Shown piece by piece: positions 1,372 through 22,423 of a stretch of 22,423 nucleotides of DNA. Each line of letters starts with the position of its first letter. Position 1 is the stretch's first letter. The position numbers and the translations under genes are program-made. The notes under the pieces were generated by a model. The model made no database searches, was not told the DNA's origin, and saw only the letters and a list, made by a program, of their open reading frames with translations. This stretch comes from a virus: positions 1 to 22,423 of IMG/VR virus record IMGVR_UViG_3300010399_000335; one strand, 5' to 3'.

Positions 1372-1914
1372 ATGACACTTAACAAAAGCCAGAAGGAAGC
1401 CGTGTTGATGTGGATCGCCGAGGGGCTGGAGACAGACGAAATCAATAAACGCGCGGCAAAGGTCAAGCCGCCTTTTACGGTATCCAGGCGCGCTGTTGCA
1501 CATTACCGGAAAACGCGTGGCGTGAAGTTGGAAGAGATCAAGGAAGCCGATGAAACCAGCGCCCTGAATAAAGGTCTGGCGCTGAAAGAAAATCGAGTTG
1601 ACAGATTGCAACAGCTTGCCGACTTGTTGATAGGTGATCTCTTTGAAAATGACCTACTATGGACAGATGAAGTCAAAGGGATTGGCGGCGCCGATAACTT
1701 TGAGCGGATTGATTATAAAGAATTCAATAAAGCCGAAGTGGATGCTTTGCGTGGTGTCTTGGATGACCTTGCATCTGAAGTTGGTGAGCGTGTCAAGAGA
1801 TCCGACGTGACCAGCGGCGGCGAACCCATCCAAATGCAGCCGGAACAAATAGCGCAACGTGTAAATCAGATATTGGAGCTGGCAGAGAAACGGAAAAAAG
1901 ATGCTGGGAACTGA
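1372..1914 (+). CDS. Phage terminase small subunit
   Basis: This is a 180-residue, charged, helical protein. The first ~60 residues fit a helix-turn-helix DNA-binding domain (TLNKSQKEAVLMWIAEGLE, then TDEINKRAA and VSRRAVAHYRKTRG as recognition-helix region), the usual N-terminal part of small terminases that recognise the packaging site. The middle (about 65-150) is acidic and helical, suitable for oligomerisation. The C-terminus (PEQIAQRVNQILELAEKRKK) is a basic helix of the kind that contacts the large subunit. It overlaps the large terminase by 14 bases, so the two are probably translationally coupled. Its start region is preceded by two copies of AACGTAACG. Assignment rests on domain pattern plus invariant position before the large subunit; confidence is good even though small terminases are poorly conserved. 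Confidence 0.8.
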   Translation: MTLNKSQKEAVLMWIAEGLETDEINKRAAKVKPPFTVSRRAVAHYRKTRGVKLEEIKEADETSALNKGLALKENRVDRLQQLADLLIGDLFENDLLWTDEVKGIGGADNFERIDYKEFNKAEVDALRGVLDDLASEVGERVKRSDVTSGGEPIQMQPEQIAQRVNQILELAEKRKKDAGN

Positions 1915-3421
1915 TTTACTTGAGTATCTAAGCGAAACTGAAAGAGCGGAGCTCGAAAGCCTGATCTCTGCTCTGCCTGCCTGGATGCCAGATCCGGACA
2001 ATGAGCCTCAATGCGCGGCCTACGAAAGCGAGGCCGATGTGATTGGCTATGGCGGTGCGGCCGGCGGAGGAAAAACAGATCTGCTTTTGGGCTTTGCAGG
2101 GACAAAGCATCACCGTTCGATCATCTTCCGGCGTGTGTTTCCGTTACTCGAAGGCATAGAAGCGCGAAGCCGTGAGATATTCAACGCAACCGGAAACGCA
2201 CGTGTGAAAGACAGCTACAACGAATCCCTGCACAGGTGGGAGCTCTCGACTGGTGCAACAGTGCGCCTGGCTGCCATTCAGTACGAAGCCGACAAGAAGA
2301 ATTTTCAGGGCCGGCCACATGACTTCTACGGCTTCGACGAAGCTACCGAGTTCATGGAATCGCAGGTGCGGTTTGTAATAGGATGGAACCGAAGTACACG
2401 GCCCAATCAAAAATGCCGCGTGGTTCTCGCGTTCAACCCGCCGATGGACGAATCAGGAGAGTGGGTTGTTAAGTTCTTTGCGCCGTGGTTGGACGAAACA
2501 CACGCGCGACCGGCAAAAGATGGCGAGCTGCGATGGTATGCGATGGTGGACGGTGAAGAAGTAGAGCGGCCAGACGAAAAGCCATTTTCCCATGACGGCG
2601 AGATCATCACACCGAAAAGCCGAACATTCTTTCATGCAAAATTGTCGGATAACAAGATCCTTGAACGGACCGGGTACGGCTCGACCATTGACGCCATGCC
2701 TGAGCCAATTCGCTCACTGCTCAAAGGTAAGTTTGGTGCATATAAACAATTTGATCCTTTTCAAGTTATCCCCGCTACCTGGGTGCGGGCCGCACAAGAG
2801 CGATGGAATAATAGTGAACCAGGACAGGCAATTACATCAGTAGGCATAGACGTTGCCCGCGGCGGCGCTGACCAAACAGTATTCGCCATTCTGCGAGCCG
2901 ATAGGTTTGATGAGCTGAAGAAATATCCAGGCCCATCAACTCCGGACGGCCGCACTGTTGCGTTGCTGGCAGGTCAAGCCACTGGAAAACAAAAGCCCGT
3001 GATCGGCGTTGATGTGATCGGCATAGGTGCGGCGGTTTACGATGCCATGCCCGGCAGCATCGGTGTGAATTTTGGAGGAGGGTCAGGAGAAACAGATAAA
3101 AGCGGGAAGTATAAGTTTGTCAATTTGAGGGCAGAAGCATATTGGAAACTGAGAGAAGCATTAGACCCAGACTATGGAGCTACTCTCGCTCTGCCGCCCG
3201 ATAAAGAATTACTAGGTGATCTATGCGCGCCGAAGTGGTCGGTGCGAACAGGGAAGATATATATTGAAAGCAAGGATGAAATTATCAAGCGGCTTGGGCG
3301 CTCGCCCGATTGTGCCGATGCAGTGGCTATTGCGTTGTTGTGCCTTTCTAAAAACTTGGACTGGAATAACACACAGGGCCTGGGCCACGTCAAGGATTAC
3401 AAAAGCAAATGGACAGAATAG
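1901..3421 (+). CDS. terL: Phage terminase large subunit (ATPase-nuclease)
   Basis: This is the motor that pumps DNA into the prohead and cuts the concatemer. The 506-residue length is typical. The ATPase part shows a Walker A motif GYGGAAGGGKT at 49-59 (K58, T59), a Walker B motif DFYGFDEATEF at 141-151 (D146, E147 acting in metal binding and hydrolysis) and a coupling-type motif VVLAFNPP at about 174-181. The C-terminal RNase H-like nuclease shows GIDVARGG with D317, GVDVIGIG with D371, and SPDCADA with D470/D473, three acidic clusters expected to hold two metal ions. It starts inside the small subunit gene and overlaps the following small gene by 13 bases. The motifs resemble terminases of Mu-like and related siphophages. 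I see no break or missing catalytic residue. Confidence 0.95.
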   Translation: MLGTDLLEYLSETERAELESLISALPAWMPDPDNEPQCAAYESEADVIGYGGAAGGGKTDLLLGFAGTKHHRSIIFRRVFPLLEGIEARSREIFNATGNARVKDSYNESLHRWELSTGATVRLAAIQYEADKKNFQGRPHDFYGFDEATEFMESQVRFVIGWNRSTRPNQKCRVVLAFNPPMDESGEWVVKFFAPWLDETHARPAKDGELRWYAMVDGEEVERPDEKPFSHDGEIITPKSRTFFHAKLSDNKILERTGYGSTIDAMPEPIRSLLKGKFGAYKQFDPFQVIPATWVRAAQERWNNSEPGQAITSVGIDVARGGADQTVFAILRADRFDELKKYPGPSTPDGRTVALLAGQATGKQKPVIGVDVIGIGAAVYDAMPGSIGVNFGGGSGETDKSGKYKFVNLRAEAYWKLREALDPDYGATLALPPDKELLGDLCAPKWSVRTGKIYIESKDEIIKRLGRSPDCADAVAIALLCLSKNLDWNNTQGLGHVKDYKSKWTE

Positions 3422-3591
3422 GCACTCATTCACTGGTTATTGTCACCGGCGTGATCACCGTCTTTTATTTCTCGCGCCTGATCGCACTACTCAATGAACA
3501 GGGAAACGTCTTATGGCGTGATCCTGCCTTCCCGTTATATCTTGTGGAATATCTGATCGAGAATCCGCCGCACCAAACGCGATGGAGCTAA
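3409..3591 (+). CDS. Small membrane protein between terminase and portal
   Basis: This is a 60-residue ORF overlapping the terminase end by 13 bases and ending 9 bases before the portal ATG. Residues about 8-28 (SLVIVTGVITVFYFSRLIALL) form one clear hydrophobic helix. The rest is short, with a proline- and basic-rich tail (ENPPHQTRWS). It has no enzyme motif. An upstream AAGGA about 10 bases before the ATG could serve as binding site, helped by coupling to the terminase stop. Small one-TM proteins at this position recur in phage head operons without assigned function; a membrane anchor or a lysis accessory are possible but nothing here proves either. The tight fit between two certain genes supports it being real. 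Confidence 0.6.
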   Translation: MDRIGTHSLVIVTGVITVFYFSRLIALLNEQGNVLWRDPAFPLYLVEYLIENPPHQTRWS

Positions 3592-3600
3592 GGAGCCATT

Positions 3601-5013
3601 ATGGCAACAGCAGAGAAAGTAAAAGCGAACGGCAAACAACCCGAAACCAGGCGAGAGGTGCGCATTGTATTCAATGAAGCCGGAACATCTGGATTGAAGG
3701 AATGGAGCGGCTTTATCACGCAAGCCTATAACGCCGCTCTGTACTGGCCGGGTGTGCAGCCGTTATATAGCAGGCTTCGAACCTCCATGCCTGAGATCGT
3801 CATGATCCGCCGTGCATTTGCATCCTGGGCCCGGAACATGTCGCCTGTTGTGGACCTGCCAGAGAATCCGTCCGACGACGATAAACGATATCAGGAGTTC
3901 ATTCAGTCCGACTTCGAGAACATGGAAGGCGGCTCTGCACAGTTCCTGGATACGCTGGTAAACCATGTCCCCTTCTATGGTTGGGGATGGTGGGAAGCTG
4001 TGCCAGGTCTGCGGGATGGCGCATGGACACCGCCGCCATTCGTGGACAGTCAGGGAAAGTTCTGGCCAGATGATTGGCGCTCAGAGCAGAATGACGGCCT
4101 GATCGGCATGCGCCGGCTTGCATGGCGGGATACATCCACCTTTTACGGTTGGGAATTCGACGGCGCCAAGAAGATGATCGGCATGACACAGCAGGACTTC
4201 CCGAATACGCCTGTGACACTGCCAAAGAATAAATCATTGCATCTGACATTCGGAGATCCCAATAACCCGGAAGGCTCATCCCCGCTCGAAGCCGTCTGGC
4301 GGTTGGAGCGTATCAAGTATGGCCTGGAAGTGATCCAGGGCATCGGCTTTGAACACGCCGCCGGCCATCTGAGTGTGCAGAAAACGGAATCAGGAACGAT
4401 CTCTGATCCAGATAAAACAGCGATCGCAGAGGCGGCAAGGAACCTGCTCTCTGCACAGGAAGGTAATTATGCCTACTGGCCGCATGGCATCGAAGGCCAG
4501 GTATTGGATATTCCATTCCAGGCGGCCAGCTCACTGCTTGAAGCGATCAAGCATTATTCCATCCTGACGTTATCTGTGTATATGATGCAAACCATAGCAC
4601 TCAATACCATGACAAACACCGGTGCGCAGGCGTCACAGGTGGACAGCACGAACCTGGCCGTCTTTACATTCAATGCCATGATGGATGGATTCGCATCCCA
4701 ATACGATGCGCAGATCGGCAAGCGTTTGTATCAGTGGAATAAGGATAGTTTCCCCGGCCTCACCAAACGCCCTAACATCCGCTTTAGCCATATCGAAAAC
4801 AATATCGCACTCGGCGAGCTGGGCGGGTTTATGTCTGCGCTGAATGGGATCCTGCCACTCGGTGAGGAAGATTACAAGGCCTTCCGCAAACGCTCTGGCT
4901 TCCTGCCTGAGAACAATCCTGAGATGGATGCGACTATTGAGCCGGCGCGGACATTGGATAATGCGCCGACGGATGGACAGCCAACGCCTGAGAAAGCAGA
5001 GCAGACAGAATGA
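3601..5013 (+). CDS. Portal protein (Mu gp29 / DUF935-like)
   Basis: This is the 470-residue dodecameric portal forming the DNA entry vertex of the head, docking site for terminase and later the neck. AAGGAG at 3590-3595 lies 5 bases before the ATG. The region MPEIVMIRRAFASWARNM at about 63-80 fits the early stem/wing. FYGWGWWE at about 125-132 and the segment NNPEGSSPLEAVWRLER at 221-237 match the conserved 'GxSpL...W...' helix of the Mu gp29/DUF935 family. The QASQVDSTN segment (343-351) and a following long helix fit the crown. The C-terminal ~30 residues are polar and acidic (PTDGQPTPEKAEQTE), probably disordered. It ends with an ATGA overlap onto a tiny membrane protein gene. Assignment is by family resemblance plus position right after the terminase. 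Confidence 0.85.
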   Translation: MATAEKVKANGKQPETRREVRIVFNEAGTSGLKEWSGFITQAYNAALYWPGVQPLYSRLRTSMPEIVMIRRAFASWARNMSPVVDLPENPSDDDKRYQEFIQSDFENMEGGSAQFLDTLVNHVPFYGWGWWEAVPGLRDGAWTPPPFVDSQGKFWPDDWRSEQNDGLIGMRRLAWRDTSTFYGWEFDGAKKMIGMTQQDFPNTPVTLPKNKSLHLTFGDPNNPEGSSPLEAVWRLERIKYGLEVIQGIGFEHAAGHLSVQKTESGTISDPDKTAIAEAARNLLSAQEGNYAYWPHGIEGQVLDIPFQAASSLLEAIKHYSILTLSVYMMQTIALNTMTNTGAQASQVDSTNLAVFTFNAMMDGFASQYDAQIGKRLYQWNKDSFPGLTKRPNIRFSHIENNIALGELGGFMSALNGILPLGEEDYKAFRKRSGFLPENNPEMDATIEPARTLDNAPTDGQPTPEKAEQTE

Positions 5014-5159
5014 CACTCTGGATAATTCTCGCCTTCGTTGTTGGGTTGCTTCTTGGCTTTGCGGCTGGATGCTTCTTTGCCATGCTTGGAGTTTATGAGA
5101 ACATGAAACACGGCAAAATCACATATCACCGCGACAATGACAAGGCTTTGAGCAAATGA
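5010..5159 (+). CDS. Very small single-TM membrane protein
   Basis: This is a 49-residue ORF joined by ATGA overlaps at both ends: its ATG overlaps the portal stop (5011-5013), and its own TGA (5157-5159) overlaps the ATG of the next head gene at 5156. Translation gives MTLWIILAFVVGLLLGFAAG, then CFFAMLGVYE, then a polar tail ending DNDKALSK. It has one long hydrophobic helix (residues about 3-30) with a glycine zipper-like run, then a short charged C-terminus. No signal for secretion or catalysis is visible. The perfect double overlap is good evidence for a translated gene. It could be a membrane-associated assembly factor or a lysis-related peptide; neither is shown by the sequence. Confidence 0.55.
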   Translation: MTLWIILAFVVGLLLGFAAGCFFAMLGVYENMKHGKITYHRDNDKALSK

Positions 5160-5911
5160 CCCTTCCTTCAGGTTCTGCCAACACTGCGCTGTTTATCAAG
5201 AATGAAGACACGTCCCTGATGTATGAACTATGGGACGGCTATTCAGGTTTGCCCGGTCTCTTGGATGCAACACGCGGTCGCCGTGGCAAGCGCAGCGGGT
5301 ACACCTACGACCCAGCAACAGGGAAATACTACTGGACGGGAACCAGTCAGGCCGTGAGTGAACAGCGTCTGCGTACCGCCGTCAAGCGCGTGAGTGATGA
5401 AGCGTCGCTGCGGATGCGCAAGGAAACACAGCAGTTGATAGCCGGCATCATCCTGTTGACCGTCTGGTATTCGTCCATGCGGTCGCTCATGAACGCACTG
5501 TATCGCACTATCTTCACAGTATCCATCGGTGGCTTTGCCTTTGAAGATGATACCGCCCGCAATGTGTTCTATGCCTTGGTGCTGGCTCAATTCTCCTGGC
5601 TGGATAATTTTGCCGCCCAAGTCAGGAGTGGAGCGCAGGCATTGAACGGATCGGCGATCACGCGCGCCGGCATGTACGGGATGTATGGGAATGGCCTGGA
5701 CCAGAACATCAAGCTATACCACGCACACGAACAAGGCTACACCGAAGCGAAACGCGTCCTTGGGCCCACTGAAGATCACTGCCATGACGCCGGCATACGC
5801 CAGGGATGCCAGGAACTCGCACACAAGGGATGGATGCCGCTTGGGGATATGGTGCCGATAGGCGATGCAACTTGTTATTCGAACTGTCTTTGCAGGATTG
5901 TATATAGGTGA
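5156..5911 (+). CDS. Minor head / head morphogenesis protein (SPP1 gp7 / Mu gpF family-like)
   Basis: This is a 251-residue protein directly after the portal, the usual place of the gp7/gpF minor head protein that travels inside the capsid with the DNA and contacts the portal. The N-terminal half is helical; residues about 93-107 (QLIAGIILLTVWYSS) are strongly hydrophobic. The C-terminal third carries the family signature: a Cys/His cluster DHCHDAG (H208, C209, H210), C218, then KGWMPLGDMVPIGDATC and CYSNCLCR (C240, C244, C246). In the family this corresponds to the conserved 'C..C....G...P...P...C.C' C-terminal domain and plausibly binds a zinc ion. It ends 4 bases before the next ATG at 5916. 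Classification is by this signature and context; the N-terminal half is divergent. Confidence 0.75.
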   Translation: MTLPSGSANTALFIKNEDTSLMYELWDGYSGLPGLLDATRGRRGKRSGYTYDPATGKYYWTGTSQAVSEQRLRTAVKRVSDEASLRMRKETQQLIAGIILLTVWYSSMRSLMNALYRTIFTVSIGGFAFEDDTARNVFYALVLAQFSWLDNFAAQVRSGAQALNGSAITRAGMYGMYGNGLDQNIKLYHAHEQGYTEAKRVLGPTEDHCHDAGIRQGCQELAHKGWMPLGDMVPIGDATCYSNCLCRIVYR

Positions 5912-5915
5912 AAAA

Positions 5916-6137
5916 ATGAGCAGTACAAACACATCTAACAACGTCGGTCTTCAGACTGCCCCACAGGATGTATCTCCGCGCGTTCATGAACTCATGCAAA
6001 GAATAGACCGCCTGCCCGCAGGTACATTCGAGATCACGATCACCAAGTCTGACGTGCGCGCGGCGGAATGGCAGATTGAGATCGTCCGCACGGAGCCGAT
6101 CATGAGCTTTGCGCTGTCGAAGTACAAGCCGGAGTGA
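5916..6137 (+). CDS. Hypothetical 73-residue phage protein
   Basis: The ATG at 5916 is preceded by AGGTG about 5 bases away and lies 4 bases after the stop of the head morphogenesis gene. An in-frame start at 5865 would overlap that gene and lacks a binding site, so I chose 5916. The first ~20 residues are Ser/Thr/Asn-rich (MSSTNTSNNVGLQTAPQD) and likely flexible. Residues about 25-70 alternate charged and hydrophobic positions (HELMQRIDRLPAGTFEITI; AEWQIEIVR), consistent with one helix followed by a small beta sheet. I do not recognise a family. Its place as the last gene before a terminator-containing gap makes it the end of the packaging/portal transcription segment. Confidence 0.6.
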   Translation: MSSTNTSNNVGLQTAPQDVSPRVHELMQRIDRLPAGTFEITITKSDVRAAEWQIEIVRTEPIMSFALSKYKPE

Positions 6138-6179
6138 ATGACAAAAAAGTTACAGCCACTTCCCGCGAATAAGGTTTAG
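6138..6179 (+). other. 13-codon mini-ORF, possible leader peptide
   Basis: The ATG at 6138 starts immediately after the TGA of the preceding gene, with GGAG at 6131-6134 three bases upstream. It encodes MTKKLQPLPANKV and stops at 6177-6179. It is followed by a GC hairpin (6198-6220) and then an intrinsic terminator (6255-6292). The spatial order (short peptide, hairpin, terminator, structural gene) resembles a leader region. The peptide holds no run of a single amino acid, and I found no convincing antiterminator pairing, so translation and function are speculative. Confidence 0.2.
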
Positions 6180-6197
6180 TGGTAATATCAAGTCATT

Positions 6198-6220
6198 GGC
6201 GGCGCAAGCTTTGAGCCGCC
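6198..6220 (+). other. GC-rich hairpin in the intergenic gap
   Basis: GGCGGC at 6198-6203 pairs with GCCGCC at 6215-6220, and CAA 6205-6207 can pair with TTG 6211-6213 across one mismatch. It is followed by CCCCAAAC rather than a T-run, so by itself it is not an intrinsic terminator. It may protect or fold the RNA between the 73-residue protein gene and the downstream terminator. Confidence 0.4.
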
Positions 6221-6254
6221 CCCAAACAACTAGATAACGCACGTGGTCTTTACT

Positions 6255-6292
6255 GGCCCGACATTCCGATAGCGGAGTGTCGGGCCTTTTTT
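6255..6292 (+). terminator. Strong rho-independent terminator before the capsid unit
   Basis: GGCCCGACA at 6255-6263 pairs perfectly with TGTCGGGCC at 6278-6286. The stem continues inward (TTCCG with CGGAG, one G-U pair) to about 14 base pairs, closed by the loop ATAG at 6269-6272. Six T residues follow at 6287-6292. The structure sits only 16 bases before the ATG of the protease-scaffold gene. It should cut or attenuate transcripts from the packaging/portal genes; how the downstream unit is then transcribed is not obvious, as I see no clear sigma70-type promoter. Confidence 0.85.
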
Positions 6293-6308
6293 GTTTCCTG
6301 GAGTCTCT

Positions 6309-7775
6309 ATGCCTTGGAAGATTTTTGAAGAAGACGGAAAGCATTGTGTTCACAAACTGAATAGTGACGGATCTGCCGGCGAGACTGTCCACTGTCATGA
6401 CACCCGCGAGAAAGCAGCAGCGCAGGTCAAGGCGCTGTATGCCAATTCAGATATGGCAATCCATCTGGAAGGCGAATCACTGGATCAAAAGATACAGCAA
6501 ATCCGTGACACATTTTATTTAAAGTTTGAACAGCCTGCCCAGCCTGCCTATCCGGTTCCGTCGAATTGCTACATCAAGGAAATCTATGAAGGCTATGTCA
6601 TTATCGAAAGCCCAGACGGTTTATTCAAAGTCACGTATACAGCAGCCGACGGTGAAATTACATTCGCAGACCGCGACAACTGGCAGGCAGTGAAGCAGGA
6701 ATACGTAAACATGCAGAAGCTTTTCACCTTTACCGAACTCTCCAAAGATGTGGCCATTAAATCCATTGACGGCCTGGCTGCTGGCACTTTCACCAGCATG
6801 AACGGCGAGGAAGTCACATTTGACCCCGCTGAACTGCAATCCTACATCGACAACACGAATGCGATCATCGAAAGCACCAAGACCGAAAGCGGTGAGATCG
6901 TCGGCCTGCCCATCGACCTTGAAGCGCACAACCATAAAGGCGGCGCCGGCTGGATCGTAGGGCTTGAATTGGACAAGGCCCGGAACGTGATCAAGTTCAT
7001 TGTGAACTGGACCCAAAAAGGTTTGGATCTCATCAAAGACAATCTTAGTAGATTTTTCTCCCCATCCACGGACCCGGAGAACAAAATCATATTGGGCGGG
7101 TCGCTGACCAACTGGCCGGCCACTCGTAATGAGAAAGGGCATATCCTGTTACGCCCCATCGAATTATCACAATCAATCAAGGAGATAGACATGGAAAAAA
7201 CTGTACTCGAAATGCTTGCTGAACTTCCCGGCAAGGTGGCAGAGGCGGTTCGCGGAAGCAAGCAACAGGATCCGCCCGCCCCGAAAGTAGAGCCCTCCAC
7301 CGAACTGGAAGATGGAAGCGACTTACGCGAGTTGCTTCAGACTCCGGAGGCCGTTGAAGAATTAGGCCAACGCGCTCAAGAAATGGCACAACAGGCCATC
7401 CGCGTTGAGAAGCGGAAACTGCATGCTGTTGAATTTGCGGCACAGATCGCCGGCGGGACGAAAGAGAAACCCTTTGGCCTGCCAGTGCGCGCAAATGAAA
7501 TTGTCGCCTTGCTGCTCTCACTGCCCGAGAAACAGGCTCTTGCAGTTGAGAACATCTTACGCAAGGCGCATGCGGGCGCGATCGATTTCGCCATGCATGG
7601 CATCGATGGTGATGGGTTTATCCAAAAACCGCAAGTGCCGGCTGTAATGAAGCCCTACGTCAGACAATGGGTCGATGCTGGCAAGCCTCTGGAAGGTTTC
7701 TTTGAAGCCAACCCGGAGCTCGGCAATCCCAACGATTACAACCTGGCTGAATTCGTAGCCAAGGGTAAGGAGTAG
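6309..7775 (+). CDS. Prohead protease-scaffold polyprotein (Mu gpI-like)
   Basis: The ATG at 6309 follows TGGAG (6299-6303) by 5 bases; an in-frame TTG at 6291 lies inside the terminator T-run and is unlikely. The product has 488 residues in four parts. Residues 1-47 (MPWKIFEEDGKHCVHKLN...CHDTREKAAAQVKALYAN) are a small domain often placed before phage head proteases. Residues about 80-135 form a beta-rich accessory domain. Residues about 138-290 resemble the Mu gpI protease family: AIKSIDGLAAGTF, GLPIDLEAHNHKGGAGWIVG, a helix, then RFFSPSTDP and GGSLTNWPATRN. Residues 295-488 are a charged helical scaffold. The protease matures the prohead and removes the scaffold. A strong internal start (7191) should give the scaffold alone. 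I cannot assign the catalytic residues with certainty. Confidence 0.85.
   Translation: MPWKIFEEDGKHCVHKLNSDGSAGETVHCHDTREKAAAQVKALYANSDMAIHLEGESLDQKIQQIRDTFYLKFEQPAQPAYPVPSNCYIKEIYEGYVIIESPDGLFKVTYTAADGEITFADRDNWQAVKQEYVNMQKLFTFTELSKDVAIKSIDGLAAGTFTSMNGEEVTFDPAELQSYIDNTNAIIESTKTESGEIVGLPIDLEAHNHKGGAGWIVGLELDKARNVIKFIVNWTQKGLDLIKDNLSRFFSPSTDPENKIILGGSLTNWPATRNEKGHILLRPIELSQSIKEIDMEKTVLEMLAELPGKVAEAVRGSKQQDPPAPKVEPSTELEDGSDLRELLQTPEAVEELGQRAQEMAQQAIRVEKRKLHAVEFAAQIAGGTKEKPFGLPVRANEIVALLLSLPEKQALAVENILRKAHAGAIDFAMHGIDGDGFIQKPQVPAVMKPYVRQWVDAGKPLEGFFEANPELGNPNDYNLAEFVAKGKE
7179..7184 (+). promoter_or_regulatory. Internal ribosome binding site for nested scaffold start
   Basis: AAGGAG, a consensus Shine-Dalgarno sequence, lies 6 bases before an in-frame ATG at 7191 inside the protease-scaffold gene. 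The match and spacing are as good as those of the major capsid and major tail genes in this window, which argues that it is used. Confidence 0.75.
7191..7775 (+). CDS. Nested scaffolding protein (internal start, Mu gpZ-like)
   Basis: This is in frame with the protease-scaffold gene and corresponds to its residues 295-488, giving a 194-residue product starting MEKTVLEMLAELPGKVAEAV. It is rich in Glu, Gln, Lys and Ala and predicted largely helical (AVEELGQRAQEMAQQAIRV), with a proline-rich spacer near DPPAPKVEPS, as scaffolding proteins are. The C-terminal ~45 residues (PAVMKPYVRQWVDAG, NPNDYNLAEFVAKGKE) would be the capsid-binding end. The same nested arrangement is known for Mu I/Z and lambda C/Nu3, where excess scaffold is made over protease. 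Evidence for separate expression is the AAGGAG at 7179-7184. Confidence 0.75.
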   Translation: MEKTVLEMLAELPGKVAEAVRGSKQQDPPAPKVEPSTELEDGSDLRELLQTPEAVEELGQRAQEMAQQAIRVEKRKLHAVEFAAQIAGGTKEKPFGLPVRANEIVALLLSLPEKQALAVENILRKAHAGAIDFAMHGIDGDGFIQKPQVPAVMKPYVRQWVDAGKPLEGFFEANPELGNPNDYNLAEFVAKGKE

Positions 7776-8246: not shown

Positions 8247-9143
8247 ATGATTTCAGGAAACGTACCTTCTCACCTTGTGGTCGGCGCCCGAACCGGATTT
8301 CTGACCACCGCATTGCCCGCAGTGCCAACCTATGCGCCCATCGCAGAAGTTGTGCCAATGGACGGCAAGAACATGGACCTGGTAGACCTCGGTGGCGCGC
8401 CGATGCCCTTGCGCAACCGTGGCAAATTCCAGGCGCAGGATTTCATCGAAAAGAAACTGGCCGTTACCCCGCTCGATTGGGATATCACAGTTTGGATCTC
8501 ACACAATGCCGTGCAGGATGATCAGACGAAAACACTTGACCGTAAGGTCCGCTCGGCTGGTGATAACTTCCAACGCCATATCTCACAGCAAGCATTTCAG
8601 GCCCTGAACGATGGTGACGCTACAACCAACTTCGGCCCAGGCTATGACAGCCTGGCCTTCTTCAGTGACAGTCATGTGGACAAAGGCGCGTACTACACGA
8701 CCGTGCAGGATAACAAGGATGCGAACTCCTTGTCCGTTGCGAACTTCCCGACTACGTTCGTCAAAGCACAAAAGACACGTGACGATCAAGGCAATTTCGT
8801 GCAGTACAACTATAACCTTTTAGTTGTGCCGCCTGAGCTTCAGCCCCTTGCTCACCAGATCACGACCGTGCCTGGCGGGAATGAGGTCGTCACGAACGCC
8901 AATCCCTACGCCGGTCAGTTGCGTTACATCGTGGCTCCCCAGTTGGATTCGACAGCCTGGATCCTGGTTGCATCAAGTGAAACGGTCAAGCCGATCCTGA
9001 TCGTCATGCGCGAACAGCCCAATTTACAAAGCGCATGGTTTGACCCTGAAGCTCCAGATGGTGGCCGATATTACTTCAAGTTCTATGCCCGCTATAACCA
9101 CTTCTATGGTGATTGGCGGACTGCCTACATGGGCAACACCTAA
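8247..9143 (+). CDS. Major capsid protein (Mu gpT-like)
   Basis: This is the 298-residue main shell protein, with HK97-type fold expected. AAGGAG at 8233-8238 precedes the ATG by 8 bases, a strong site suiting a highly expressed gene. The N-terminal region contains the long-loop/helix part (FQAQDFIEKKLAVTPLDW, WISHNAVQDDQTKTL). The segment YDSLAFFSDSHVDKGAYY (about 133-150) corresponds to the Mu gpT 'D...fFs..H...' motif, and LLVVPPELQPLAHQI to the conserved spine after it. The NPYAGQLRYIVAPQLDSTAWILV region and the C-terminal YYFKFYARYNHFYGDWRTAYMG fit the family's A-domain end. It is followed by an intrinsic terminator at 9171-9205. Position after protease/scaffold and decoration gene agrees. 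Confidence 0.88.
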   Translation: MISGNVPSHLVVGARTGFLTTALPAVPTYAPIAEVVPMDGKNMDLVDLGGAPMPLRNRGKFQAQDFIEKKLAVTPLDWDITVWISHNAVQDDQTKTLDRKVRSAGDNFQRHISQQAFQALNDGDATTNFGPGYDSLAFFSDSHVDKGAYYTTVQDNKDANSLSVANFPTTFVKAQKTRDDQGNFVQYNYNLLVVPPELQPLAHQITTVPGGNEVVTNANPYAGQLRYIVAPQLDSTAWILVASSETVKPILIVMREQPNLQSAWFDPEAPDGGRYYFKFYARYNHFYGDWRTAYMGNT

Positions 9144-15719: not shown

Positions 15720-18587
15720 TTGCGCGTGGCGATCTTCCAGCCGGCCACAGTGTATACAGCGCGGGTGAATCAGAGCTTCAGCACGAAAGATAAGATCCTT
15801 CAAGTCACATACGACGGCGGATCAGGAACCTTGGCAAACGTCAAAGCCGATATGACCATGCTTGTAGGTTCATCCGCGGGCGCTCATGATAAAGGCATCG
15901 TCCGGATCCGCAAGGCGCCGACGTCAACGATCTTCTATGTTGGGGAAAACTCTGATGTGAAATGGGCGGATAATTTATATCTCACTGTCCTGGCCGACTT
16001 CGATCTATGGCCGCGGCACATTGCGCTTTCAGGTTCTACGCCGCTCATGGATGGGGATATAGCATATAGCAATCAACATTCGACATTCGATCCCGTTCCT
16101 GTTATGGGAAGTCACAGGGTTTTGAAGCTCACTGATGCGGACGTTTCATCTGAGTGGGACGGGTCCGGATCCTGGGTATATGGTTCATCTATTTCCACCT
16201 ACGCCTGGGTTTGTGCGACGGCTTCAAGCTCGAGCAATATGAACACGTCCACGCCGACGATCAATTTCGATGATGTTGGCTGGCATCTTGTTTATCTCAC
16301 CGTCACAGCCGCCAATGGTAAATCGTTTCAAGCCGTTCGTTATGTCTACGTTTGGGATGATGATAACCCACCCCCCTCTGCAGAGATCGGCTCCTGTAGC
16401 AGCGACGTCAGCTCGGGCGGATGGCAGTTCAACATTTCGATGTATGCCGATGCGACGCTATCAGATATCCGTGACCGCGCGCTTGTTATCTTGTTTGCAG
16501 AAGATTTCTACGGTGCAACCAGGCAATCGATCGGGCCGCTCGAAGGCTGTGAGAATATTATTGCCATCGGCAGGATCACCGGCCAGACCATCGATTGGAA
16601 CCCTGAACAGGGCAAGGTAGATTTCACGGTCCAGGGTGCTCACTACTGGTTCAATCAGATGAAAGGCTTTCCATCGGGCCTTCAGATGGTCACAGGCACG
16701 CCGGCGGCATGGACCGAGATGGGAAGTCTGACCGTAGGCCGTGCGCTGTTTCATTTCTTGCATTGGAGAACCACGGCCACAAGGGTAATGGATATTACCT
16801 TAACAAGTGACGCGCGCCTGCAAACGGAAGTTTCCAGCATGGGCGGCAAGTTATGGGGCCAGATGTCCGAATTCGCATTCAATACCATCATTGCAAATAT
16901 CGGCGTGGATCGGTATGGGCGCCTGTTTGCTGAGATCGATCCGCAGATGGTTCCGGAGGCGTCGCGTTCTTCCATCCCTACAGTGATGACCATCACCAAA
17001 GCCGACTGGCAGAACACGCCGAATATCGAGCGTGTGACCGTTGAAGAAACGGCACTGATCGATTTGTCAGGCGTGAGTGTCAACACGAACGCGCATGGAT
17101 CTTCGTTCTTCTCGTTATCCCCTGGCCATGTGATGAAACGATACGGGGATGATGACATTATTGATCACCTGTCCGCATATTCTACACAGGCGGCAAATAA
17201 TCAACTGGCTGCGCTTATCCTTGGCTGGCGTGATAACGAATTCCCACAGATAGACTTCGAGCTGTCTCACAACAACCGTCTATTCGATTGTTGGCCGAAT
17301 CAGTACGCACAGGTCGCCATTGCAGCCGGCGACACCCCGCGCGGCATTGCATACAGTGGCAAGATCATCCCGCGCTATGTTTCTTTTGTTCAAGGTGAGG
17401 GCGGATTCCTTTATACGGAAATCTCATTTGAAGGCGTGACGCTTGAGCAGAATTCGACGAACGGCGATATTCCATTCAGCCCTGATGATGTTTCAGCGCC
17501 GCCTCTGCCCTCCTTCCCTCCCCTGCCTGATTTCCCGATCATCCTTCCAGGCTTTCCAGAGGGCTCCAAGGACGGACCGCAGAAGGTAATACTACACGAT
17601 GTAAGCGCGGGACTTCTTTACTCGGACAACTTCTTTGAAGAGGGCAGCGCGGTCAAGTGGAGATTTATCAACGCCGGATTGACCGCGGCGCAATATCAGC
17701 CCATAAACAATTTCTTCAAAACACCCAACGGCGCTCTGTTTTGTGCGTACACAGCGAACGCAGATTTCGGAGGTTTCACGCCCTTCTTTGTTGCCCGCGC
17801 CCCCTCCATCGGCGCAACGTTCACCGTGCTCTACGATGAGCCGAGTATCAGGCCGCCCTCCCCTGGCGTATTTACGGATCCCTGGGGATTGTATGCAGTA
17901 GGGTATAACCCGTTGGTTTCTGAACAAGTTGCGTTCATCATGGGACAGGCCAATGTAGATCAAAAGATATGGCTCGGTTCAGGAAGTTCCTTCGCAGCAG
18001 GAGCAGCCATAAGCAGCACTGTTTTCTTGGGCGGGTTGACTTATGGGGAAAATGCGTGGCTTTATACAAGATACAATCACTTCTCAAGGATCGCTCCTAA
18101 TGGTGGATCTGTTCTTGCCACTGGAACTCCTCCAATTGGGTCAATGGACACATTTTCACCTTTCTTAAGTCATGTTCGAGCCAGTACAACTGGGAGAACT
18201 TTTCACACGATTGATGGCGGAGGTGGATATATCATTGGTGAAAATAATCTCGCTACGATCACCACGATCGCTGATGCCGATTTTGCTGGCAAGGGTTTTG
18301 CCTGTGACCCCAGCGGCATGTTTATCATGACGAAGTATGGAGCAGGCGCAAGGGGACGGTCATCTGATGGCGGCGCGACATTTGGCACGATCCCCAGCCT
18401 GCCGTTTGGTGTTTGGTGGTGGGACTACGCGGGCGGCGCAGGAGTAACTTCGCGTTGGGTCGCGGCGGGCGGTTCGTCTGTGCGTTACAGTCCAGATTTC
18501 GGAGATACATGGGCTAACAAGGAAGGAAATCTAACGCAACTCGTCCCCCTACCCAATATAGACGGTGTGAAAGTGGTGGGATACTAA
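15720..18587 (+). CDS. Large tail hub / tail-tip protein with PKD-like and BNR propeller-like regions
   Basis: From the TTG at 15720 the product has 955 residues, but the frame is open back to a stop at 15639, and the 21 codons from 15657 (IARAATSPELTLFRTPGQWS) look like coding sequence, so the real start is probably upstream at a non-standard codon. Residues 1-115 are a beta-rich head (AIFQPATVYTARVNQSFSTK; VRIRKAPTSTIFYVGE). Residues about 118-212 resemble a PKD/Ig-like domain (STYAWVCATASSS; GWHLVYLTVTAANGKSFQAV). Residues about 220-585 are a hub core with FYGATRQSIGP and FNTIIANIGVDRYGRLFAEI. A proline-rich hinge (about 586-615) leads to a repeat-rich end (621-955) with Asp-box-like SSDGGATFG (881-889) and SPDFGDTW (924-931). 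It probably forms the tip that contacts the host and carries a carbohydrate-binding part. Confidence 0.75.
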   Translation: MRVAIFQPATVYTARVNQSFSTKDKILQVTYDGGSGTLANVKADMTMLVGSSAGAHDKGIVRIRKAPTSTIFYVGENSDVKWADNLYLTVLADFDLWPRHIALSGSTPLMDGDIAYSNQHSTFDPVPVMGSHRVLKLTDADVSSEWDGSGSWVYGSSISTYAWVCATASSSSNMNTSTPTINFDDVGWHLVYLTVTAANGKSFQAVRYVYVWDDDNPPPSAEIGSCSSDVSSGGWQFNISMYADATLSDIRDRALVILFAEDFYGATRQSIGPLEGCENIIAIGRITGQTIDWNPEQGKVDFTVQGAHYWFNQMKGFPSGLQMVTGTPAAWTEMGSLTVGRALFHFLHWRTTATRVMDITLTSDARLQTEVSSMGGKLWGQMSEFAFNTIIANIGVDRYGRLFAEIDPQMVPEASRSSIPTVMTITKADWQNTPNIERVTVEETALIDLSGVSVNTNAHGSSFFSLSPGHVMKRYGDDDIIDHLSAYSTQAANNQLAALILGWRDNEFPQIDFELSHNNRLFDCWPNQYAQVAIAAGDTPRGIAYSGKIIPRYVSFVQGEGGFLYTEISFEGVTLEQNSTNGDIPFSPDDVSAPPLPSFPPLPDFPIILPGFPEGSKDGPQKVILHDVSAGLLYSDNFFEEGSAVKWRFINAGLTAAQYQPINNFFKTPNGALFCAYTANADFGGFTPFFVARAPSIGATFTVLYDEPSIRPPSPGVFTDPWGLYAVGYNPLVSEQVAFIMGQANVDQKIWLGSGSSFAAGAAISSTVFLGGLTYGENAWLYTRYNHFSRIAPNGGSVLATGTPPIGSMDTFSPFLSHVRASTTGRTFHTIDGGGGYIIGENNLATITTIADADFAGKGFACDPSGMFIMTKYGAGARGRSSDGGATFGTIPSLPFGVWWWDYAGGAGVTSRWVAAGGSSVRYSPDFGDTWANKEGNLTQLVPLPNIDGVKVVGY

Positions 18588-18588
18588 C

Positions 18589-19587
18589 ATGCCACTCAAA
18601 GCGCGGAACATCAAACGAAAAGTCGAGCAGCTATTCAGGCGCGCCGACAGTGAGTGGGCCCAGAAGACCACCGCTGCACTGGGCAATGCCGACGGCGTTG
18701 TGAAATCCGACACTGACGGCTTGATCTATGCGCGCCTTCGCAATGGCGAAACGGTAAAGGTCTATAACGACATTGCACCTGACGATTTCGATGTACGTGT
18801 GCTGATCGGGCGCAAGAAAGAACAGCCGACCCTTTGGAGAGTGATCGCCGTCCGTGATGCGTATGCCATCCCACAGGCCCCACGCGTGAAGTATCACGCT
18901 GAGCAGCACATGTTCAGGGCGCCGGATGAGATCCCGATTGATCGCAAGCAGATCATCCAGCTCACGATTATCGTTTCAGATGGAACGGCTTTCACCATCA
19001 CCGTCTATGGTGGGGTCATCCGCACGGCCACCGGTATTGCGCGCGTGGATACCCAGCCGATGGACTTATCTTCCTACATTCCCACGACCGGCGCTGTATA
19101 CGTCTCCATTGAAGCCGATAGCACTGGCGAGGTCACGGCCAATGAAGGCGTGAACTTTGCATCGCCCTTGATTGCGCATGTGAGCTACATCCCCGTGCCT
19201 GATGCCGGTAAGTACATGATTGGCTACGTTCTTTTGTGGGAAGGGATGGAAGAGCTCACCGACGATCAGATAGCAGTACCTTTCCCCTTGGCCGCGGATT
19301 ATTCAGGCCTGGGCGGCGGGACACAGATCCATGATGCCGATGAAGAAACAACATTGGCAGACGATGATGAGTTTGGATTCTGGCAGGAAGTAAGTGAGAC
19401 GTTCAAAAAGATCACGTGGGCGAATATTGTCGCAGCATTGACCACCATCTTTGATGCACTATATGCAGCGATTGGTCACACGCACGCAGCCGACGATAGC
19501 GGGAAGGTGGTCATGGAAGATGGTGTAACTTTCCCGCCCGTGCCAGTGACCACTGAAGACGGGACCGACTGGATTTATTCGGACTAG
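18589..19587 (+). CDS. Tail tip / baseplate-associated protein
   Basis: This 332-residue protein starts one base after the hub stop. The N-terminal helical part (KRKVEQLFRRADSEWAQKTT) is followed by GNADGVVKSDTDGLIYARLR and NGETVKVYNDIAPDDFDVRV (33-70), a small barrel-like region, then LWRVIAVRD. Residues about 95-240 are beta strands (IIQLTIIVSDGTAFTITVYG; AGKYMIGYVLLWEGMEELTD). Residues 247-291 (HDADEETTLADDDEFGFW; FKKITWANIVAALTTIFDAL) are a connector pattern recurring in phage tail fibres, with a GHTHAADDSG segment at 296-305 following. It probably links the hub to the fibres made by the next two genes. No enzyme motif is visible. Function is inferred from order and the fibre-type connector. 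Confidence 0.65.
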   Translation: MPLKARNIKRKVEQLFRRADSEWAQKTTAALGNADGVVKSDTDGLIYARLRNGETVKVYNDIAPDDFDVRVLIGRKKEQPTLWRVIAVRDAYAIPQAPRVKYHAEQHMFRAPDEIPIDRKQIIQLTIIVSDGTAFTITVYGGVIRTATGIARVDTQPMDLSSYIPTTGAVYVSIEADSTGEVTANEGVNFASPLIAHVSYIPVPDAGKYMIGYVLLWEGMEELTDDQIAVPFPLAADYSGLGGGTQIHDADEETTLADDDEFGFWQEVSETFKKITWANIVAALTTIFDALYAAIGHTHAADDSGKVVMEDGVTFPPVPVTTEDGTDWIYSD

Positions 19588-19595
19588 GAGCAACT

Positions 19596-20429
19596 ATGAC
19601 AACGGTATCAAATAACAATTCCCCGCATCTCACATTGGTTGAACAGGGCAGCGCACCCGATACACCCGCGGCAGGGTCAAAGAAGTTATTTCTTGATTCA
19701 GCAGATGGCAATCTATATCTGATTGATGAAGCCGATGTAGTGACGCCGGTTGGTAGCGCGACCGCTTTTCACAGTGATGCTGACGGCGAGATCGACGGAC
19801 TTACCGAAAAGGCAACTCCCGTCGCCGGTGACCTCATCCTTATCGAAGATAGCGAAGATGGGTTCGCGAAGAAAAAGCTGGATGTGGATAACTTGCCGGG
19901 CGGCGGTGGAGGTGGTCTTGTCTTGCTAGAACAGCACACTGCAAGCAGTTCTGCGATATTGGCTTTCACCACTGGCATCACATCCACCTATGATGATTAC
20001 CTTCTGGAGATTGTGGACCTGATCGTGGCGACCAACAATGTTGCTTTGGGTATGCAATATTCTGCTGATGGTGGCTCCAGTTATGAGACGGGCAGTAATT
20101 ATTATTCGGCAGGATCCTATATTCAGAACGGCGGAAGCCTGGGGACACAGGGCGCAAATCCGGGGACATCCTTCATACTTGGAGCAGGTCTAACAAATAC
20201 GGTTTCAAGACCATTTCAAGCTACGCTCCATTTACGCTCCCTTCTTTCAACGGCTTTGAGCAAGATTATTTATGGAGAGTTTGCTTATACAAATCAGAGT
20301 TTTGTCGTGGGCGGTAATTTGAATGGATTACTGCTGGTCCCCGGCACCGCTTACAACACGTTCAAGTTGTTTTGCAGTAGTGGAAATATTGCATCCGGTG
20401 TTGCGCGGCTCTATGGAGTGGAGAAATAA
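19596..20429 (+). CDS. Tail fibre-like protein, short
   Basis: This is a 277-residue modular protein. AGGAG at 19586-19590 precedes the ATG by 5 bases. Residues 14-53 (LVEQGSAPDTPAAGSKKLFL; DGNLYLIDEADVVTPVG) are a fibre-type strand-turn unit. Residues about 60-100 hold DADGEIDGLTEKATPVAGDL and LIEDSEDGFAKKKLDVDNL, the connector pattern shared with both neighbours. A GGGGGG hinge at 102-107 leads to a C-terminal beta-rich domain (108-277) starting LVLLEQHTASSSAILAFTTG and ending VARLYGVEK, probably the receptor-binding or trimerisation end. The stop overlaps the next ATG (TAATG). I see no catalytic residues or tail-fibre chaperone gene nearby. Confidence 0.7.
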   Translation: MTTVSNNNSPHLTLVEQGSAPDTPAAGSKKLFLDSADGNLYLIDEADVVTPVGSATAFHSDADGEIDGLTEKATPVAGDLILIEDSEDGFAKKKLDVDNLPGGGGGGLVLLEQHTASSSAILAFTTGITSTYDDYLLEIVDLIVATNNVALGMQYSADGGSSYETGSNYYSAGSYIQNGGSLGTQGANPGTSFILGAGLTNTVSRPFQATLHLRSLLSTALSKIIYGEFAYTNQSFVVGGNLNGLLLVPGTAYNTFKLFCSSGNIASGVARLYGVEK

Positions 20430-22093
20430 TGACACACCCTTACACTCGTTTATTCTCTGGCAAGACAACCGCTCCGACTGTTGACGAAGACAGCGATGCT
20501 GGTTATGAAGTCGGGGATATATGGATTGATGAGACAGCCGATAAATCCTATCAAGCGGTAGACGTAACAGCAGGTGCGGCGATCTGGGAGGAGCTGACGG
20601 GTTCCGGTGGTGGTGGATCCTACACTGATGAAGAAGCGCAGGATGCGGTGGGGGCAATGGTGGATGGCACGCTGGTATATACGGACGCAACTCCGTTGCT
20701 CAGCCGCGCGGCGTTGACGGGTGAAGTCACTGCATCTGCTGGTTCCAACGCGACAACGGTTACAAATGCTTCTGTCATTGCAAAAGTGTTGACTGCATTT
20801 TCAGCAGGCGCGGGAACGGTTAGTGCGGCGGATTCTATTCTGAGTGCATTTCAAAAGGTTGTTGGAAACATCGCGCTGAAGCTCACGGCCAACTCTCCGA
20901 TCACCGGCGCAACAAAGACCAAAATCACGTATGACGCGAATGGCCTGGTAACTGCTGGGGCTGACATCGCTGCGAGTGATCTGCCTACTGGGATCGATGC
21001 AGCAAAACTTTCATCAGGCGTTGTCTCCAATACAGAGCTTGATTATTTGAATGGCGTTACCTCTGCAATTCAAACGCAGATCGATGCGAAGGTAACTGGT
21101 CCTGGGAGTGCGGTCAGTGGAAACATTGCCATGTTCAATGGGGTTAGCGGAAAGGAAATCATAGATACTGGGGATAATGTTATCAGTCTGGGATTGGCAG
21201 CCCAAATTCAATCCGGCAGTACTGTGACCACTATAAGTGACCCTGACATGATTGGGTTCCGAAAAAATTCGGATGGGATAAAAAGGAAAATTGCGTGGGC
21301 TGATATGTTTGCAAAAATCCTGGCAGCCATTTTCAGTGATGCAGAGGGCAATCCTGCTGACGTTGGAACGACCGCAGACGGAACCAGCGCTTATGCTGCA
21401 CGTAGAGATCATGTGCATGGTGGCGGCGGCGGTTCGGTGTCAGTCGCGACCGATCCCATATTCGACGCAAAAGGAGACTTGCCTGTTGGCACAGCCGCAG
21501 ATACCGCTGCGAAGCTGACCGTTGGTGCTAACCTGCAAATCATTGTCGCAGACAGCACTCAGACCACCGGGCTTAGATATGCAACTGGCCTTCGAGAACT
21601 CATCCAAAGCGCAACTCCATCGGGCACCGGAGTTGTTACCTTCTCATCTATACCGGGAACTTACAATTCTCTGGAAATAGAATTCGTAGCACGCAGCACA
21701 GAAGTAGCAACATTTTCCTATGTGAGAGTATTCTTCAACAACGACAAAACAGCCGCGAACTATCGCTATTCGATGAAATATGCCTATGGTACATCAACGC
21801 TAACAGGAGAGGGTGGGAATGATACAAAAGTGGCTGTTATTGCGGCAAGCACCGCAGATGCAGGCCAATGCGGAAGAGGGAAAATCGTAATTCCATTTTA
21901 TGCAGAAACAACTTTCAATAAAATGGCTTCATGCATAAATGGTTGTCGAAGAGATGCTGGTACAGTTGGAGTGATGGATATATCGGCATCTTCAGAATGG
22001 GAAAGCACCGCTGCCATTACGAGAGTTGATGTTGATCTCGTGGCCGGCAACTACGTATCTGGCACGAAGATCAATCTGTATGGTGTGAAATAA
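20429..22093 (+). CDS. Tail fibre protein, long modular form
   Basis: This 554-residue protein has modules in order. Residues 1-56 (RLFSGKTTAPTVDEDSDAGY; VGDIWIDETADKSYQAVDVT) form an N-terminal attachment unit; a GSGGGGS hinge lies at 58-64. Residues 65-155 are Ala/Thr/Val-rich repeats (LTGEVTASAGSNATTVTNAS). Residues 178-221 hold AASDLPTGIDAAKLSSGVVS and NTELDYLNGVTSAIQTQIDA, a frequent fibre shaft unit. Residues 268-300 carry the connector pattern (IGFRKNSDGIKRKIAWADM). At 307-334 comes GNPADVGTTADGTSAYAARR and DHVHGGG, then FDAKGDLPVGTAADTAAKLT (345-364), all known fibre repeats. The C-terminal domain (390-554) starts LIQSATPSGTG and ends SGTKINLYGVK, related to the end of the preceding protein. 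It is likely the host-range determinant. Confidence 0.78.
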   Translation: MTHPYTRLFSGKTTAPTVDEDSDAGYEVGDIWIDETADKSYQAVDVTAGAAIWEELTGSGGGGSYTDEEAQDAVGAMVDGTLVYTDATPLLSRAALTGEVTASAGSNATTVTNASVIAKVLTAFSAGAGTVSAADSILSAFQKVVGNIALKLTANSPITGATKTKITYDANGLVTAGADIAASDLPTGIDAAKLSSGVVSNTELDYLNGVTSAIQTQIDAKVTGPGSAVSGNIAMFNGVSGKEIIDTGDNVISLGLAAQIQSGSTVTTISDPDMIGFRKNSDGIKRKIAWADMFAKILAAIFSDAEGNPADVGTTADGTSAYAARRDHVHGGGGGSVSVATDPIFDAKGDLPVGTAADTAAKLTVGANLQIIVADSTQTTGLRYATGLRELIQSATPSGTGVVTFSSIPGTYNSLEIEFVARSTEVATFSYVRVFFNNDKTAANYRYSMKYAYGTSTLTGEGGNDTKVAVIAASTADAGQCGRGKIVIPFYAETTFNKMASCINGCRRDAGTVGVMDISASSEWESTAAITRVDVDLVAGNYVSGTKINLYGVK

Positions 22094-22094
22094 C

Positions 22095-22423
22095 ATGAGC
22101 CGCCAAACGTTACGAGTGTTATTGATCGAAGACAACCCTGATGATGCGGAGTTGATTCTGCGCGAGCTGCAAGGCGTCTGGGACACTCTCATGGAGCGCG
22201 TGGAAACAGAGAAGCAAGTCCTGGATGCGCTCCATAATAAGCCCTGGGATATCATCCTGTGTGACTTTACACTGCCTCTTTTGGATGCATCAAGAGTGGC
22301 TAAAATTCTAGAAGAGCTCGACATGGATTTGCCGTTCGTCATCGTGTCTGGGACGATTACAGCGTCGCAGGCCGAAAAGATATTTTTTGACCAGGCGGTG
22401 AATGGGTTCGTGAGCAAGGACAA
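22095..22423 (+). CDS. Response regulator receiver-domain protein (3' end outside window)
   Basis: The ATG at 22095 lies one base after the fibre stop; the frame is open to the window edge, giving 109 visible residues. It starts RQTLRVLLIEDNPDDAELIL and contains all key residues of a CheY-like receiver: acidic pair E12-D13, phospho-acceptor D57 in WDIILCDFTLPLLDA, switch serine S85 in FVIVSGTI, and K108 in GFVSKD. It should be phosphorylated on D57 by a histidine kinase. Nothing is visible of an output domain, so it could be a single-domain regulator, or the start of a larger kinase or transcription factor. Its place directly after the fibre genes, same strand, suggests transcription with the phage late genes. 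The weak binding site (GGTG) hints at coupling. Confidence 0.85.
   Translation, partial: MSRQTLRVLLIEDNPDDAELILRELQGVWDTLMERVETEKQVLDALHNKPWDIILCDFTLPLLDASRVAKILEELDMDLPFVIVSGTITASQAEKIFFDQAVNGFVSKD

Follow-up and report, generated by a model that had tools for sequence, protein, structure and literature searches.

Why would a phage carry a gene for a signalling receiver directly behind its tail fibres? The DNA analysed here (hereafter, the window) is an entire IMG/VR virus record of 22,423 bp, and its right end is occupied by the 5' part of a receiver (REC) gene (22095..22423, plus strand). This gene comprises 109 codons without a stop and meets the contig end, i.e., its reading frame is incomplete because it is open through the last base. 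At the junction TAA-C-ATG (22091..22097, plus strand), the stop codon of the tail fibre gene and the start codon of the receiver gene are separated by a single base, the C at 22094.

The 109-residue product matches PF00072 of Pfam with an E value of 3.5e-10 and 40.5 bits (cut-off 30.2). When aligned with 16 other receivers, the residues E12, D13, D57, and G86 are invariant, while S85 and K108 are in register (plus-strand codons of D57, S85, and K108 at 22263-22265, 22347-22349, and 22416-22418, respectively). An AlphaFold2 model of the product (mean pLDDT 88.5) has the alternating beta/alpha fold of receivers, and its Foldseek matches are the receivers of LvrB (8vc9, TM 0.88), RcpA, PmrA, and PhoP. 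The features by which PF00072 is recognized (acidic pair, Asp, Ser/Thr, Lys, and fold) are all present, and alpha-5 alone is absent where the contig ends. The truncated gene that follows the tail fibres encodes a genuine signalling receiver, and profile, residues, and fold agree with the sequence-only reading that had described a complete-looking receiver core one base behind the fibre stop on the same strand. In GC content, GC3, and codon usage, the gene falls within the spread of the other window genes.

All genes of the window described in the following are encoded on the plus strand. The gene directly upstream of the receiver (20429..22093) encodes a tail fibre-like protein of 554 aa with partial matches to phage virion proteins and to the fibre of a related phage, G806. 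It is preceded by genes for a fibre-like protein of 277 aa (19596..20429; C-terminal domain phrog_14820, E 5.8e-14) and for two tail proteins, one of 332 aa (18589..19587) that is found in the sister phages G792 (43% identity) and G806 (32%) and one of 955 aa (15720..18587) that is shared with G792, G795, and G806 at 43-54% identity. Further left lie the genes of a Mu gpT-like major capsid protein (8247..9143; PF10124, E 7e-18) and the terminase large subunit (TerL, 1901..3421; phrog_979, E 2.9e-38; 74% identical in G795).

A search with the capsid protein yielded 19 related contigs at 51-80% identity, and sister records were scanned with PF00072 for REC and PF13487 for HD_5. G792 and G806 follow the gene order of the window from portal to tail, and G795, G798, and G790 do so in part; the sister contigs measure 18-45 kb and are related to non-jumbo phages. 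Queries with the fibre, 332-aa, and 955-aa proteins found no sister phages, and terminase relatives were dropped as a guide since they have TerL in common and differ in the rest, which makes them uninformative on the receiver. The portal and capsid of G790, G796, G798, and G804 are 62-78% identical to those of the window, but their terminases show just 25-34% identity over partial length. With capsid and portal close but terminase distant (except in G795), the terminase module seems to have been exchanged among these phages. Tyrosine recombinase/integrase genes are found in G790 (L152:4777-5772) and G806 (L147:12458-13420), so some of the sister phages may be temperate.

Searching the receiver against phage and host genomes, as the sequence-only reading had suggested, was productive on the bacterial side, where the closest homologues are around 35-45% identical and for the most part form the N-terminus of REC–PAS–kinases, but gave no homologue among known phages at 1e-5. 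In most of the top bacterial matches, a gene for an Rcp1-like receiver lies right ahead of the REC–PAS–kinase gene; directly upstream of the window receiver no Rcp1-like gene is present, and a tail fibre gene is found there instead. The window receiver is 31-32% identical to the receivers of its sisters G792 and G795 versus about 40% to the bacterial REC–kinase receivers. In a receiver tree, all of these share one branch with 100/100 support. Within this branch, the window receiver is not resolved with those of G792 and G795, yet a clade made up of these three is not rejected either (p-AU 0.45).

It is in the sister phages that a likely output domain comes into sight. REC and HD_5 are combined in single proteins of ca. 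325 aa in G792 (HD_5 E 1.2e-39, REC 6.4e-9) and G795 (HD_5 E 2.4e-36, REC 4.8e-14), while G806 encodes HD_5 without REC (E 5e-27), and the G790 contig starts with an HD_5 fragment (E 8e-20). The motifs HD[VI]GK and HHExW(D/N)G(S/T)GYPxGL are intact in the sister proteins, and the metal-ligand positions of HD-GYP enzymes, as known for PmGH, do not vary among the three complete ones. The closest solved relatives are PmGH (4mcw, 2e-40) followed by V-cGAP3 and PA4781. The top NCBIfam match of the HD-GYP part is the NosR family NF053512 with 140 and 139 bits, short of its curated cut-off of 400 bits, and a PHROGs v4 search gave no HD-GYP family for the stand-alone protein of G806. From their sequences, the complete sister proteins look like a receiver, a helical linker, and an HD-GYP phosphodiesterase predicted to destroy cyclic dinucleotides. 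The known substrates of HD-GYP enzymes are c-di-GMP and 3'3'-cGAMP; that of the putative phage enzyme would most likely be c-di-GMP, with 3'3'-cGAMP as a possible alternative.

Two sets of data were left out of the argument. One is an AlphaFold2 model of the entire G792 protein that was built from three sequences (pLDDT 76.5, pTM 0.49). The other comprises 31 HD-GYP matches in unannotated faecal "Bacteriophage sp." records; the two records inspected are labeled UNVERIFIED and have no annotated genes. Among annotated phage records, an HD-GYP match is found only in MW495066 of Microcystis phage MaAM05 (L160, 28592-41035), which contains tRNA-Trp, secE, nusG, rplK, and rplA in a row with a secretin gene nearby and looks at least partly bacterial.

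The surroundings of these genes bear on whether the receiver belongs to the phage at all. In G792, the fibre genes are followed by a GH25 endolysin gene, two further genes, the REC–HD-GYP gene, a gene for a coiled-coil/transmembrane (TM) protein, and another membrane-protein gene; beyond these, on the other strand, lie genes for a phage primase, a DnaB-like helicase, and a DNA polymerase. With phage genes on both sides, the G792 gene is phage cargo and not a host border, and this argues against such a border in the family as a whole. The HD-GYP gene of G806 begins about 100 bases behind the last fibre-like gene, the HD-GYP fragment of G790 leads into a GH25 endolysin gene, and the REC–HD-GYP gene of G795 is preceded, with an ATGA overlap, by a gene for a 285-aa protein. 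Between this cassette and the terminase, G795 (L142, oriented contig 2716-7437) has several forward genes, including one for a 708-aa protein whose start looks fucosyltransferase-like by eye. A resemblance of the window's left-end reading frame to the 252-285-aa late protein of the sisters comes down to one short motif, DGTxPPP (E 0.13), and is not claimed.

The sequence-only reading had considered the receiver to be either phage-carried, with homologues expected at the same place in related phages, or a mark of the border between a degraded prophage and host DNA. The former is supported in that REC–HD-GYP or HD-GYP genes lie in the same late region of four sisters. Host DNA, either at a prophage border or at the end of a chimeric contig, is a highly improbable source: only about 330 bases of the gene are visible at the contig end, and the sampled bacterial genomes gave no phage relative for a synteny comparison, but this explanation would make mere coincidences of the TAA-C-ATG junction, the phage-like composition, and the similar gene in four sisters, and it does not fit the G792 gene with its phage neighbors. 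The sampling behind this comparison consisted of TerL and capsid searches in ca. 300-400 genomes each from the phyla of the Chloroflexota, Acidobacteriota, and Pseudomonadota loci, with no capsid relative and a best TerL match of 46-52%. REC and HD_5 are both absent from G796 and G801, in which much of the post-fibre region is present, and the gene is therefore accessory.

Because phage lineage, genomic region, and receiver subfamily all match those of the sisters, we think that the window gene probably encodes the receiver at the N-terminus of an RpfG-type REC–HD-GYP regulator, with the HD-GYP half predicted from the sister genes. This likely output domain is new information beyond the receiver alone. 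The modest identity to the sisters' receivers would also allow for independent acquisition with another output domain, i.e., for the window gene to be a different phage-carried receiver, either stand-alone or of REC–kinase type. Its best cellular matches are indeed receivers of REC–PAS–kinases, and stand-alone or membrane-fused receivers are known in other phages (L002, L092, and L084-L086). We nevertheless regard this as quite unlikely, given that genes for REC–HD-GYP or HD-GYP proteins occupy this region in close sisters and that the sisters' receivers belong to the window's subfamily, while those of L002, L084, L087, and L092 fall outside it.

Few receivers in IMG/VR have the common [IVM]EDNPDD motif: a degenerate pattern occurs in 17 stretches of the whole database, of which only L002 and L092 are receivers by profile. 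These two and the L084-L086 receivers sit with membrane or late genes. L085:9554-10399 (and likewise L084 and L086) encodes a 281-aa late-region protein in which a membrane segment and a coiled-coil-like stretch are joined to a receiver at the C-terminus; a gene for a 609-aa protein lies next to it. A stand-alone receiver is encoded between tape measure and holin-like genes on a 76.8-kb viral contig (L092:1321-1851, minus strand). In L002:1680-3793, the gene for a stand-alone receiver of 117 aa overlaps by ATGA with a gene for a 190-aa protein and follows genes whose products are small membrane and coiled-coil-like proteins. Just beyond its tail fibre region, on the opposite strand, Pseudomonas phage Komp_PAO1_1 (L104, 24216-25001) encodes a hypothetical protein of 261 aa that weakly resembles receivers.

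The REC–HD-GYP or HD-GYP gene overlaps by ATGA with the next gene in three of three cases (G792, G795, and G806). The coupled products are 144-199 aa long, each with one C-terminal hydrophobic segment by hydropathy and, judged by eye only, coiled-coil-like sequence, and they show weak mutual sequence likeness. No lysis family of Pfam or PHROGs matches these proteins, whose architecture, we presume, resembles that of XhlA-like phage lysis proteins. Receiver and coiled-coil protein are fused in L084-L086 and encoded side by side in G792, G795, and L002, and the L092 receiver gene lies beside a holin-like gene. One might speculate that several unrelated phages, including that of the window, have each linked, in the late/lysis region, a receiver that responds to the host with a coiled-coil protein anchored in the membrane, as signal-gated modules for lysis or release in which phosphorylation or a cyclic dinucleotide would set lysis time or release. 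We consider this broader idea doubtful; since none of the L002, L092, and L084-L086 receivers belongs to the window's subfamily, a shared theme would have to be convergent.

For the proposed REC–HD-GYP regulator itself, we envisage that it would be made late in infection alongside tail and lysis proteins and be brought to the membrane by its coiled-coil/TM partner. There, it might hydrolyze host cyclic dinucleotides, most likely c-di-GMP, around the time of release, with its activity tuned when a host kinase or a small phosphodonor phosphorylates D57. Less c-di-GMP would mean less matrix and fewer c-di-GMP-dependent surface glycans, which could help release and limit re-adsorption. There is at least one case of a phage receptor under c-di-GMP control: phage N4 needs a c-di-GMP-dependent surface glycan, although global c-di-GMP changes had little effect in that system (PMC8669472). 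That the gene is late, retains the phosphosite, and comes with a membrane partner favors a local lowering of c-di-GMP near the membrane. The sequence-only reading had also suggested that the receiver could rewire host two-component signalling or act as a decoy phosphate sink. Given the likely HD-GYP output in the sisters, a phosphate sink is less likely than a phosphorylation-gated enzyme, and any rewiring of host signalling would more probably run via cyclic dinucleotides than via transcription.

The same protein could instead serve in counter-defense by destroying the cyclic (oligo)nucleotides of CBASS or type III CRISPR systems, the receiver then being either a switch or a remnant. The best solved relatives of the sister enzymes include the 3'3'-cGAMP phosphodiesterase V-cGAP3, and G806 has lost or never had a receiver, which makes gating look dispensable. 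However, counter-defense genes are usually early, unlike this gene of the late/lysis region. The conservation of every phosphotransfer residue in the receivers of the window and two sisters suggests gating, and the cellular REC–HD-GYP architecture is typical of c-di-GMP enzymes (as in the NosR match, albeit below its cut-off). We thus see counter-defense as possible but on balance unlikely, although HD-GYP enzymes of jumbo phages have been predicted to be such defenses against nucleotide signals (PMC7824862). If the preferred reading of a late, membrane-partnered REC–HD-GYP regulator is true, an environmental phage family produces, late in infection, a cyclic-dinucleotide phosphodiesterase that is gated by phosphorylation and has a membrane protein as its partner. 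A single cassette would then connect second messengers with host two-component signalling and with either phage release or counter-defense. The sister genes also place HD-GYP enzymes outside jumbo phages.

The literature, preprints and most subscription journals aside, yielded nothing on phage-encoded response regulators or on HD-GYP proteins with an endolysin. Among phage genomes, a parallel in position is a response regulator annotated behind the tail genes of Stenotrophomonas phage vB_SmaS_Bhz63. Its product is named PhoP-like and shows weak similarity to the window receiver (27%, E 0.3), with a kinase-like gene after it and a methyltransferase gene and a putative terminator between it and the tail genes. 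The REC–PAS–histidine kinases of Cryosericum, Bacteriovoracaceae, and others share the receiver subfamily at about 35-45% identity but differ in being cellular, in having an Rcp1-like gene ahead, and in their kinase output. The HD-GYP phosphodiesterases of jumbo phages (Viruses 2021, PMC7824862) are likewise phage-encoded, and the available part of that paper describes neither a REC fusion nor a late/lysis location for them. While HD-GYP counter-defense had already been predicted in jumbo phages, the late, REC-fused, and membrane-partnered form would be new. Closest in architecture are regulators of the RpfG/NosR type, which are c-di-GMP phosphodiesterases: the sister proteins share their order of REC followed by HD-GYP and all signature motifs, though they are not members of the NosR family proper (140 of 400 bits) and the window itself shows the receiver only. 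Unlike these regulators, the sister genes are phage-encoded, lie in the late region, and are coupled to a gene for a coiled-coil/membrane protein.
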